DNA from: Cristatella mucedo
Taxonomy: Eukaryota; Bryozoa; Phylactolaemata; Cristatellidae
Assembly: GCA_009760855.2 (NCBI GenBank)
Contig: WPIO01000064.1
Span: 2,061,501-2,125,500, forward strand
Reading direction: 5' to 3'
Length of the DNA stretch: 64,000 nucleotides
Shown here: piece after piece, positions 18,156 through 33,205 of the stretch
How positions within the stretch are numbered: the first letter of the stretch is position 1
Layout: each line of letters opens with the position of its first letter
Translations under genes and position numbers: made by a program
The notes under the pieces: model-generated
Seen by the model: the letters and a program-made list of their open reading frames with translations, nothing else
Database searches by the model: none
What the model was told of the DNA's origin: nothing

Positions 18156-18210
18156 ATGGACCAAGTGGAGAACCTAGTCGCCAATCTGCTGCATGTAAAC
18201 GCAAAGGCCG
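18156..18210 (+). CDS. GRK first coding exon, variant 1a
   Basis: Starts at ATG 18156 (context ACAATGGAC) and encodes MDQVENLVANLLHVNAKA plus one base. The GTACGG donor is at 18211. It matches the GRK4/5/6 N-terminal helix, whose vertebrate form begins MELENIVAN. The ENLVAN core is kept, but there is one extra residue before it and the second half (LLHVNAKA) diverges. In known GRKs this helix docks on the active receptor and contacts the kinase small lobe. Phase 1 at the end is compatible with exon 2. Only genomic sequence supports it. It could be an old duplicate no longer used, but the open frame, donor and CpG island argue for use. Confidence 0.75.
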
Positions 18211-18240
18211 GTACGGTGCACCGTCGCGTCACGTCGGAGC

Positions 18241-18272
18241 GACCGCACGTGCGGCCGAGCGCACGTGCGGTC
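18241..18272. repeat. Perfect inverted repeat, 12-bp arms
   Basis: Arms GACCGCACGTGC and GCACGTGCGGTC are separated by 8 bases, 30 bp after the exon 1a donor. Each arm carries a CACGTG core. It could be a hairpin in RNA or a paired E-box site in DNA. Confidence 0.9.
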
Positions 18273-18508
18273 GCGGCCGAGCCGAAGACACGAGCACGTG
18301 CGCACACACTGCATTTCGTCGTCGCTACGCGGGTCTCACGCCCACTCGCTGCTTCTCCCGCATCCAGTGCATCGGCTGCTGCACCGGGCTGTTCCCGCTG
18401 CCTCGAAATTGCCAGCGAAGCCGGCCAGGCTCGAATGACCTTGCGACCGATCGGCTCGCGCTGTCGAAAACCGCATCGGTTGATCGCTCGTGCGTAGCGG
18501 CCGCCGCC

Positions 18509-18720
18509 CTCTCTCTTTCTCTCTCTCTCCCTCTCTCTCTCTCACTCACTCACTCTCTCTCTCTCTCTCTCTCTCTCTCTCTCTCTCTCTCTCTCTCTCT
18601 CTCTCTCTCTCTCTCTCTCTCTCTCTCTCTCTCTCTCTCTCTCTCTCTCTCTCTCTCTCTCTCTCTCTCTCTCTCTCTCTCTCTCTCTCTTTCTCCCTCT
18701 CTCGTGCTCGCACGCTCTCC
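18509..18720. repeat. (CT)n microsatellite
   Basis: About 200 bp of CT units with a few CACT, TTCT and CCCT interruptions at the ends, in the intron behind exon 1a. Long frames across it are repeat artefacts. Confidence 0.97.
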
Positions 18721-29731: not shown

Positions 29732-29775
29732 TTCTGCCGCTATACAAATGAGGCTTTTAAATCAGCTAACACTTA

Positions 29776-30889
29776 TTTTTTCATTTACAACGACGAGATG
29801 TAAAATATGTCTAAACGCTTGAGAAACGCTGAAGAAAATGTATTGGCAGCTTTTGACCATAAGCGAAAAAACTCCTTTGCCGAATATTTTCACGAGTTTG
29901 GGCGAAGTCGTGCGCGTAGAAACGCAGGAGACGCCAAAGTCGGCAATTTCTGCGCTCTCATGGTTATCTCGGGAAGATTAACTGGCCTCGGTGGTTATCG
30001 CACACGTTTTTAGGAAAAAAGGTACGAGCACGGTAGGACATTAAAAAAGGACGGTAGTGACGTCAGCGTGCCACGCGGGGACTAAACCGCCCACCGGAAA
30101 GAGGGCCAGCGGCGCGTTCTGCCGCTGTCGATTGGAGTTTCGCGTGGCTATCGATGATGAAAATTCAATTGTGAGCATTTCTGTCGTGTTTTCAGCGGAC
30201 ACATTTCGTTTTGTGAAATCTCTGCTTTGAACTTTCTGTAAACTCTACGCTACGCCGAGCATCTCTTCTCTTCGCCACTTCATCTTGACATCTGCCATTT
30301 GAAACTGCTGTCCCACTTCAGCTCGGTTTTTGCTTCCGCTACCAGACTGAGAAGCAGCCAAAACCTTGACCTCGCGCGGCCGCGCTTTGCCGACTCCTGC
30401 TGGAGCGCGCTGGCCTGCTGGATATGCAGCACCGATTGGGTATCGCCCTTCTGAAGAGTGCGTCCACAGCGGCGCCAACTTGGGAAAAGCTACCGCGCCA
30501 CCCTTCTCCCGTCTGTTGCATCGCGGCCTAGCGGCGTTTCAAAGGAAGACACATTCGGCTCTACGCCCGCGGAGGCGGTGCACTAGCTGGGGGAGAGCGG
30601 TCCACGTGGCTGCGCCGCCGCGCCGCCGCGCCGCCGGTCTGGCGCAGCGCCGACAGCACCCTCGCGGCTTTCGCTGCGCTCTCCTTCTGCTGAGGAAGCG
30701 GCCGTAACGATGCGTTCCCGGGCGGCTTCGGAGCCGCGGAGCCGCGGGACCGAAGCTTCGCGTTCTAGAGCCTACCCGCTAGCGCGCCGCGCGTCGACTT
30801 GGCTGGCGCTCGGCCGGCTCGCGAGCCCATCCGCGTCGAGGTTTAACGGACGTTTGCCGCGACAGACGTGCCTTTGACGACCGAGGTCA
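29776..30889. other. Intron sequence with a GC-rich patch, no gene recognised
   Basis: A + frame (29807-30013) begins MSKRLRNAEENVLAAFDHKR but has no recognisable homologue or splice support. 30340-30860 is GC-rich with a short CCGCGCCG triplet run near 30615-30640. Confidence 0.35.
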
Positions 30890-32125
30890 CTCGAAGCCTC
30901 AGTAGCTTTCGCGTGCATTCGGTAACCAAAAGACTTGTTATAGCGCAACGAAGAGACTGTGAGAAGCAGGAGCTGAGTGAAGGAGGCGCATGGAAAGGAT
31001 GCGCCGCAGCATGGCGGCGGCAGCAGGAGGAGGAGAGAATGCCTAATCGTGGAAGTGAGCTCCACAGTCTAGGGCCTGCAAAGCATATGCCTTGGTCTCC
31101 GACGGTCTTTAAGCGTAAGAACGAAGTGGCTCGTGTACTGTCCGTCGAGAATCGGAGAGCACGAGCGGGCTGAAGCTCGTGCAGCAGTTCAGCTAGGTAT
31201 AAAGCCGCGGCGAGCCTTGTGGATCGCAGAAAGGCGGTTACTCTGTATCCACCGATCGACCGGAAATCATCGCAGCTCCTTCAGCAAAGGATGCGCACGG
31301 CTGAGCCTCTGGGGTTTGTTGACTAGCCTTGCAGCCATATTCAACCAGCGGCAGAGTGGCCCGGTGGCATTGTTCAGTTGCCCAGCCAATATGGAATTGC
31401 AGTAATCCAGCCAAGAGAACTAAGGAGCTGGTTAAAGTTTTTGCTAGCCGCCGTATTAGAGTCTCTAAACTAGGGATTGGACGTGATGGCTAGCTATGGA
31501 GGCAGTCTTTTTAATATAACTTTCAAATTTTAGGCAGTTGTCAGAGACGACGCCTAAATGCCGATCGCACGGAGACGGTCGCACGACAGCATTCCCTGTT
31601 AGATGAGCAAAGTCTTTTAGTCGAGCCACACGCTTGGGGTTTCCTATGCGTAGCAGTTCAGTTTTATCGTTGTTCAGTTTAAGGAAATTTGCCGACATCC
31701 AGGATCAAATGTCTGCTAGGCAAGCATTCAGTTAATCCGACGCTGCTGCAGGTTCCTGCGGTTTAAATAACATATACAGCTTAGTATCGTCGGCATAAAA
31801 GTGATAGCCGATCCTATTAGCCCGCATCACTTTTCACCAAGTTTGAGTATAAATGAAAACATGAAACGAAGAGAACGGACCCTTTCGGGACACCAAAGGT
31901 GACCTGTCTGTTGGATGAGACTCGACCCCCACACGACACGGATTTAACGCGATAGGACAAGTACGATTTGAACCACGCCAGTGGCTCGTCTGCCAGACTG
32001 ATCGTTGTTCTCAATCGTTCAAGCAGGATATCGTGATCAACAGTATATCCAACAGCTGATAGATCTCAATCGTTCAAGCAGGATATCGTGATCGACAGTA
32101 TATCGAACAGCTGATAGATCAAGCA
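30890..32125 (-). mobile_element. LINE (LINE-B-like), inverted
   Basis: The minus strand reads ISLADEPLAWFKSYLSYRVK and VTFGVPKGSVLF (32014-31817), then MSANFLKLNNDKTELLRIGN and CDRHLGVVSDNCLKFESYIK (31698-31465). This is the RT region of a CR1/L2-like element. The 3' part includes a GTGCATTCGGTAACCAAAAG segment (about 30912), the complement of the LINE-B terminal block. The GVPQGS motif reads GVPKGS. Confidence 0.72.
32010..32119. repeat. 55-bp tandem duplication
   Basis: CTCAATCGTTCAAGCAGGAT through CAGCTGATAGAT occurs at 32010-32064 and again at 32065-32119, with two or three substitutions. It lies at the 5' edge of the inverted LINE. Confidence 0.92.
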
Positions 32126-33153
32126 GGGCCAGAGCAGCGACATTACCGCCATACTTCGCGACCGCAGGTCCAGTCGACGCGCGCTTAGGGAAAGAGGCAT
32201 CTCTGGATTAGGATTCGTTCGCAGAGCGCGGATTTGCTGCGAGGCCGCAGCGTGGATTCGGCGTACGACTGCATTTGTACCAGACCGTGCGGGCGCACTG
32301 CGGGCCCAGCCATTTTGAGCCGTCCGCCGAGCGCGTGCGAAAGCGGAAGCTCGCGTTGTGCGCGCCGCGGCGGCGGGGGTGTGAGGTGGAGGCTTTTCGC
32401 TGGTGGGCATACTCCGTGCAGACCCCTCTCGTTCACTCCGCGCCACCGCCGCCTGCCCCCCCCGACATGCTCGTTTCTCGCTGATGCCTCACTTGGGACC
32501 CGGCGCGCCTTGCAGCTGCGGGCGACTGGCCTGGGGGTATATGCGCTGGATTGGCTCGGCCGAATAACCGAACCCGCTCGGCGCACGAATCCGTCAGCCG
32601 TCACGACACCCTGCGCCTGCAGCCGGCGCACGCGTCACTAGGCCCCGGCCGCCTACCGCCGCGGTCTCGCCGCCGACGAGATCGTGCCAGTCAAGATTAT
32701 TTATCGCCCGCCGGGCCCGCGTACGTACGCCGCCGTCGCCTAGCCGGTCGTAACGACCGTCGCGCGGCCGCCCGCCAGGAAGAGAGGTTCGCTGCGAGGT
32801 TCCGTAGAGCCCAGCGTCGGCAGCCGCGACCTCGCGCGGGACGCCGCTGGGGGCGCGCCGCTGCTACCGCACTGCGGGTGCGAGTTGGCGAGAAATCCAG
32901 CCGCCAAGCCGGTACGACTAGCTAAGATTGTACTGAGAGTCGGAGGTGCGGTCGAGAGTCCGCTGGCTGGCTGGCTGGCTGATCGATACGCGGCAAATTT
33001 CCGCAGCGCGCGCGCAGCGACGTAACGACGGCGGCGGTGGAGGCCCCGCTCCGAAATCGAGACGGAATCAGCGCCATCTGTCAACAAGCCCTTCTTCCGA
33101 GTACTGTTGACACATGAGAGGACCATCCTGCCGCGGCGGCCCGACGGAGGAAA

Positions 33154-33205
33154 ATGGAAATAGAGAATCTAGTTGCCAATCAAATATATATAAAAGCAAG
33201 AGCAG
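33154..33205 (+). CDS. GRK first coding exon, variant 1b
   Basis: ATG at 33154 (context AAAATGGAA) encodes MEIENLVANQIYIKARA plus one base, with a strong GTAAGG donor at 33206. Length and phase match the vertebrate GRK4/5/6 first exon exactly (17 codons plus one base), and the sequence is closer to the family than variant 1a. This is likely the canonical first exon. The N-terminal helix is needed for receptor-stimulated activity in characterised GRKs. It joins exon 2 nearly 12 kb downstream as G plus CT, giving Ala at the junction. Confidence 0.88.

Follow-up and report, generated by a model that had tools for sequence, protein, structure and literature searches.

Two alternative first coding exons predicted for a GRK4/5/6-type kinase gene of the bryozoan Cristatella mucedo

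Animals possess few receptor kinases (GRKs) and many receptors. A locus in the bryozoan Cristatella mucedo raises the question of whether a single GRK gene can present two versions of its N-terminal helix (alphaN), the segment that inserts into the active receptor and helps to lock the kinase closed. The locus lies in a stretch of 64,000 nucleotides, hereafter the window, which occupies positions 2061501-2125500 of the forward strand of contig WPIO01000064.1 (C603 below) in the 572-Mb assembly GCA_009760855.2. Two short coding exons were found here, exon 1a (18156-18210, + strand; MDQVENLVANLLHVNAKA) and exon 1b (33154-33205, + strand; MEIENLVANQIYIKARA). They probably belong to two alternative promoters of one GRK4/5/6-type gene, each promoter having its own first coding exon and 1a encoding a re-tuned helix. 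Transcripts would start at either a distal promoter (1a, near 18.1 kb) or a proximal promoter (1b, near 33.1 kb), and either transcript would be spliced to the same exon 2, so that the kinase would be identical apart from its alphaN helix, which would come in two forms. Judged from the sequence, the most likely arrangement is a choice of promoters, each bringing a different first coding exon, in the manner of the catalytic-subunit genes of protein kinase A (PKA), and the pair of 1a and 1b isoforms constitutes a strong prediction.

Exon 1b is the canonical first coding exon and exon 1a the alternative one. Both are open and end in phase 1, at the donors CAG/GTAAGG (1b) and CCG/GTACGG (1a), and they share one exon 2 (45196-45279, + strand), which follows the acceptor tttgcag, runs from phase 1 to phase 1 and encodes the basic motif KGRSKKWK and a run into the RH domain. 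Each first exon ends with a single base of a split codon, and its reading frame runs on into exon 2 to give ...AHKGRSKKWKEMLCFPHISQC. An A at -3 and a G at +4 surround both ATG codons, and an in-frame stop lies 39 nt upstream of each; this combination of an upstream stop and a good ATG context fits first coding exons. The N-terminal peptides encoded by each exon together with exon 2 matched GRK5 with E-values of 8.9e-8 (1a) and 1.6e-10 (1b). An earlier note on this DNA, all of whose coordinates check exactly, had described 1a and 1b as open, with phase-1 GT donors and a shared exon 2, as is borne out by the sequence and the in-frame joins. Its proposal of one GRK gene with a choice between two first coding exons is likewise well supported as a prediction from the sequence, in which two open alphaN exons agree in phase, exon 2 and the downstream gene are single and the divergence resembles that left by selection. 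The gene model further implies that the predicted proteins would differ only in the alphaN helix, and exon 1a does encode one residue more than 1b, with most changes in the C-terminal half and the ENLVAN core common to both.

The identity of the gene was established from a model whose borders were set by hand across the window and 40 kb of further sequence (104 kb in all). It comprises 15 exons with GT-AG borders, all in frame, and yields a 565-aa protein (1b form); the model stops at a further donor after ...MCMCCRRAQ, and the true C terminus, where GRK4/5/6 members have a membrane anchor (an amphipathic helix or palmitoylated cysteines), lies beyond it. Downstream of exon 2, the RH domain is encoded by exons 3 (51201-51316), 4 (55837-55914) and 5 (56033-56130), the end of the RH region up to the kinase domain by exon 6 (56306-56398) and the kinase small lobe by exon 7 (62703-62907), while exons 8-15 continue past the window to window-equivalent position 85800, all on the + strand. 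Pfam recognised an RGS domain (6.3e-16) and a Pkinase domain (6.1e-66) in the joined protein, that is, an RH domain and an AGC-type kinase. The 1b form matched GRK5 at E 1.6e-222 (residues 1-547), compared with 1.5e-147 for GRK1 and 1.1e-93 for GRK2. The bit scores, which are search scores and not a tree, were 743 for GRK5, 731 for GRK6, 694 for GRK4, 496 for GRK1 and 318 for GRK2, and by search score the gene is assigned to the GRK4/5/6 type (GRKa).

Both forms align to the GRK5 helix, which is of the M-E-L-E-N-I-V-A-N type, 1a with one additional starting residue. In GRK4/5/6 the helix is followed by the order basic, G, basic, S, two basic, W, basic (PMC3307776; here and below, PMC identifiers stand for excerpts of the papers), and KGRSKKWK has this order. 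The several glycines described for most metazoan members are missing, with A-A-H between helix and basic motif and four residues fewer than in GRK5, a difference that is not decisive for the class. The Ala-Ala-His in place of the usual glycines spans the exon 1-2 junction (33200-45215); given this linker, the helix may extend toward the basic patch.

The 104 kb around the gene contain two clear alphaN exons (1a and 1b) and one clear exon 2; no third alphaN copy or second exon 2 was clear in this interval, where the next-best alphaN candidate scored 23.0 against 36.8 for 1a. Across the genome, a single match to exon 2 was reported. A genome search with a human GRK6 query, in which 76 of 270 candidates were scored, reported 20 matches, three of them on C603 at 63-85% identity and the others at 29-49%. 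Among these 76 candidates, identity of at least 63% occurred only on C603, and with no other exon 2 match reported in the genome no tandem GRK duplicate or pseudogene was seen; within the same scope, the C603 gene appears to be the only GRK4/5/6-type locus of the genome. One match, on contig C199, was taken as GRK2-like. The same contig carries the alphaN exon of a GRK2-type gene (L052, C199:3472359-3472385; MADLEAVLADVSYLMAMEK), located by a near-exact pattern search that returned one match, as did its control. No second alphaN copy for the GRK2-like gene was found by this near-exact pattern, which would miss a diverged copy.

Could the resemblance of exon 1a to exon 1b have arisen by chance? 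Open stretches that had an ATG close by and a phase-1 GT were scored against 1b, in the window and in 50 locally Markov-shuffled versions of it. Exon 1a scored 53 and the next site in the window 11, while the best shuffled scores had a mean of 12.5 (standard deviation 4.5, maximum 24); when the ATG and GT were not required, the shuffle mean was 25.0 and the maximum 32. With 53 against a shuffle maximum of 24, the 50 shuffled windows rule out a chance match as the source of 1a. The broader reading, in which the match is accidental or part of an unrelated gene, draws on the six-residue core pattern, for which the genome yields 38 matches and its reversed control 38 as well, and on one unrelated site (L031) that scores 44, where 1a scores 50 on the scale used for the pattern sites, and lacks an in-frame ATG in the 60 bases upstream. 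This reading is nonetheless extremely improbable, since 1a matches as a whole, start and donor included, and shares gene and phase with 1b. Apart from the two window exons, the core pattern has 36 matches, all of which were examined, and an ATG within five codons combined with a phase-1 GT at offsets 34-61 was present at none of them (0/36). Site L043 comes close, with an ATG eight codons upstream and an identical offset for its phase-1 GT, and scores only 23; site L042 has an ATG nearby and lacks a phase-1 donor in range. Taken without its start and donor, the helix peptide is not unique within the genome and, as the core alone is not rare, the evidence lies in the whole exon with its start, donor, phase and place.

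The divergence between the two exons bears on whether 1a is still maintained. Their codon alignment covers 17 codons, with the additional codon of 1a omitted, and contains 36 identical nucleotides out of 51; nine of the 15 differences fall at third positions. The Nei-Gojobori method (NG86) gave a nonsynonymous divergence (dN) of 0.27 and a synonymous divergence (dS) of 0.92. When 15 changes were placed at random (20,000 draws from each exon), the observed protein score was reached in 0.17% of draws from 1b and 0.37% from 1a, and a stop was created in 44% and 26%, respectively. The flanks of the two exons (600 nt upstream and 300 nt downstream) aligned no better than shuffles, and a recent DNA duplication was ruled out by this failure to align. 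In simulations, homology of the upstream and downstream flanks was detected in 100% and 95% of cases at a divergence of 0.4, figures that fell to 62% and 15% at 0.6 and to 3% and 0% at 0.8. The probability that an unconstrained 1a would keep its ATG, GT, frame and similarity was 0.15, 0.03 and 0.005 at the same divergences, before insertions and deletions are counted. Furthermore, a repeat scan of 16.5-34.5 kb revealed no family pairing the 1a and 1b regions among the matches listed, a set that did not include 17 copies of one CT-repeat family.

These results permit a second alternative to be weighed, namely that 1a is a relic that is no longer used, whether it stems from an ancient doubling of exon 1 or is all that remains of a defunct tandem GRK gene. 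Its donor is weaker than that of 1b, and so short an exon could survive by luck. However, 1a has kept its start codon, its frame, its phase-1 donor and a conservative protein pattern beside flanks that cannot be aligned, and no second exon 2 is clear in the 104 kb, which makes a relic improbable; 1a does not look like one. The preferred reading, in which 1a serves as an alternative first exon, would have it arise from an old duplication of exon 1 and be retained by selection.

Whether each exon has a promoter of its own was approached through the CpG profile. The earlier note had placed the exons in separate CpG islands. Both enrichments are real, with a CpG observed/expected (o/e) ratio of 1.18 in the block around 1a (17501-19000, a putative distal promoter, TpG/CpA 0.83) and 1.24 in the block up to 1b (27501-33500, a putative proximal promoter); their separateness did not survive, as a third CpG-rich block (22001-24500, o/e 1.35) with no domain recognised in its scanned open reading frames (ORFs) lies between them. 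This third block may be an enhancer, a further promoter or an exon that is not translated. Exons 1a and 1b are thus better described as lying near opposite ends of one patchy CpG-rich domain. Elsewhere the CpG o/e was 0.73 (1-17.5 kb), 0.86 (19-22 kb), 0.79 (24.5-27.5 kb) and 0.70 from 33.5 kb to exon 2, followed by 0.70 and 0.65 along the remaining gene, with TpG/CpA broadly opposite. Least-squares change points fell at 17501 and 33501, and 0/500 permutations matched the latter fit, for ranges that were chosen post hoc. In invertebrates that methylate active gene bodies, a fall in CpG that begins just past 1b would point to 1b as the main or germline promoter and to an interval between 1a and 1b that is not transcribed as a gene body in the germline; such a profile would fit a more restricted 1a promoter.

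The third block also lends some support to another alternative, in which 1a transcripts splice elsewhere, for example to exons of a small gene nested in the CpG-rich DNA at 22-33 kb, since at 22-24.5 kb it contains no recognised exons. A scan at E 0.01 of 20 hand-picked ORFs from the 45 longest below 45 kb, with shorter and low-complexity ORFs left out, returned the reverse-transcriptase domain RVT_1 in two of the 20 and nothing else, and the candidate nested gene was rejected. As the phase and peptide of 1a suit exon 2 and the known GRK order, splicing to another destination is very unlikely.

The leaders of the two exons were also compared. A possible upstream ORF in the 1a leader (18039-18119, + strand) is in frame with 1a and closed by TAA at 18117, and it matters only for transcripts that start 5' of 18039. 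A possible upstream start before 1b (33114-33209, + strand) lies in a different reading frame and extends across the start of 1b, its stop being that of the unspliced RNA. The 1b leader therefore has an overlapping out-of-frame ATG and the 1a leader a closed upstream ORF, and the two may differ in translation.

Several points count against the interpretation of 1a as a maintained alternative first exon, in addition to site L031 above. Among six donors scored with a donor matrix, that of 1a stands at the 25th percentile and that of 1b at the 90th, although the 1a donor still exceeds that of exon 2 (12th). Identical residues (8/16) are not above simulation (P 0.25 and 0.34), so that the selection signal sits in the conservative character of the changes. 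The exon is just 55 nt long, and the comparison of dN with dS is therefore based on 15 changes; the selection argument also presumes that the duplication first spanned flanking DNA. No retrocopy with joined exons 1 and 2, which would be indirect proof of splicing, was seen in the genome. Finally, one-kb bins with CpG o/e of at least 1 number 14 in the 104 kb, nine within 17.5-33.5 kb and five outside; given these outside bins and the exonless block at 22-24.5 kb, CpG richness alone marks no first exon.

What would a second helix change? Structures of GRK1 with rhodopsin show alphaN reaching into the receptor cleft at its N-terminal end and packing into the kinase groove at its C-terminal end (PMC9418498). 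Mutants of GRK2 assign positions 4, 7, 8, 11 and 12 to receptor contact and positions 10, 13, 16 and 17 to kinase closure, and those at position 13 lost phosphorylation of both receptor and peptide (PMC4155688). Between 1b and 1a, in GRK2 numbering, three of the five receptor-facing positions differ (I to V at 4, Q to L at 11 and I to L at 12, with L at 7 and V at 8 retained), only Q to L at 11 being non-conservative. Two of the four closure positions differ as well (Y to H at 13, the stronger change, and R to K at 17, with N at 10 and A at 16 retained). The other changes are I to V at 14, K to N at 15, E to D near the tip and one additional tip residue, which gives 1a the GRK2 length. The helix moment and charge (0.40 and -1 for 1a, 0.25 and 0 for 1b) are crude and were not used as evidence.

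As both faces of the helix and its tip are changed, altered coupling between receptor and kinase activation is expected at least as much as an altered choice of receptor, which the earlier note had stressed and which is one option. Two other models, reviewed in PMC8002388, have alphaN make no direct receptor contact, in which case 1a would act on activation alone. Under the preferred reading, the tip residue together with Q to L at 11, Y to H at 13 and K to N at 15 would alter receptor-triggered kinase switching and possibly the receptor range. A further alternative, which shares the two promoters with this reading and departs from it only in the effect of the helix, holds that 1a is used mainly for regulation, supplying a second promoter, another 5' leader and a new expression domain while the two helices are equivalent. 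Most helix differences are indeed conservative, the ENLVAN core is unchanged and the 1a leader has its possible upstream ORF. GRK5 and the GRK2-like helix of this genome vary at some of the same positions, as do the helices of GRK4 and GRK6. A purely regulatory role is possible but rather doubtful, given the residue inserted at the helix tip and the change at position 13, where GRK2 mutants lose phosphorylation (PMC4155688).

Among the systems examined, the nearest parallel found is PKA, also an AGC kinase, in which PRKACA and PRKACB extend the N-terminal helix through alternative first exons that join a common exon 2 (PMC5526564). There, exon 1-1 ends in phase 1, and human C-alpha1 is ubiquitous while C-alpha2 appears sperm-only (PMC5526564). 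The PKA N termini are of unequal length and carry different modification sites, myristoylation among them (PMC5526564), and they do not sense receptors, whereas 1a and 1b are two clear versions of one conserved helix. Human GRK4 alpha, beta, gamma and delta are of the same GRK4/5/6 type and differ near the N terminus; there, exon 2 can be skipped in frame (32 codons; PMC5015388), while here exon 1 itself, which encodes the receptor-sensing helix, comes in two versions. One GRK6 clone lacks the first 32 residues (PMC7999923), and mouse Grk6-207 is stated to have an alternative start site and lacks exon 10a (PMC12632871); these are altered transcripts, yet a second alphaN version is not described in the excerpts of either source. 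Exon 1a matches GRK2/3 in the residue count before the hydrophobic-Glu pair (M-x-x-[VL]-E) but has an ENLVAN core of the GRK4/5/6 type and precedes a kinase of that type. In the excerpts of the open-licence literature on GRK isoforms and start exons, no description of two alphaN first exons of a GRK was found, and PMC11854058 and PMC7645380 mention alternative promoters, in the parts available, for other genes only. The class of mechanism is known; two versions of a GRK receptor sensor would be new.

Such a gene might offer a promoter-selectable receptor sensor, a standard kinase and a re-tuned one with an altered activation threshold or receptor range, perhaps widespread in invertebrates and overlooked; this extension is tentative. 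If true, nature would have swapped the helix at this locus in a way that is informative on the recognition of active receptors by GRKs, a subject discussed in PMC8002388 and PMC9418498, and desensitisation could be set via promoter choice. An exon of the 1a type is easily missed by annotation, being 55 nt long and 27 kb from exon 2. The N-terminal helix is suspected to have been missed in some predicted GRKs, including those of tick and ant (PMC3307776), and a second short first exon could therefore be overlooked elsewhere.

The remaining features of the window are mostly of a repetitive nature. A tRNA-like stretch (GGTTCGAATCC) at 17641-17687, just upstream of the 1a block, has a 70% copy at 29378-29424 and looks like a short interspersed element (SINE). 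In the window, tRNA gene calling returned none, this stretch included, and an RNA-family scan at the gathering score returned none. RVT_1 fragments of the long interspersed element (LINE) type lie at 8428-9579 (+ strand) and 25885-26355 (- strand), the latter in a CpG-poor patch of the 1a-1b intron. A short tandem unit and the (ATT) run behind it are present at 6416-6638 and again at 9602-9824, 3186 bases apart, as if these were two copies of one mobile-element end. In the mitochondrial COX1, AGA/AGG codons fall at what we take to be conserved serines and two AAA codons at a presumed lysine, which fits invertebrate code 5.

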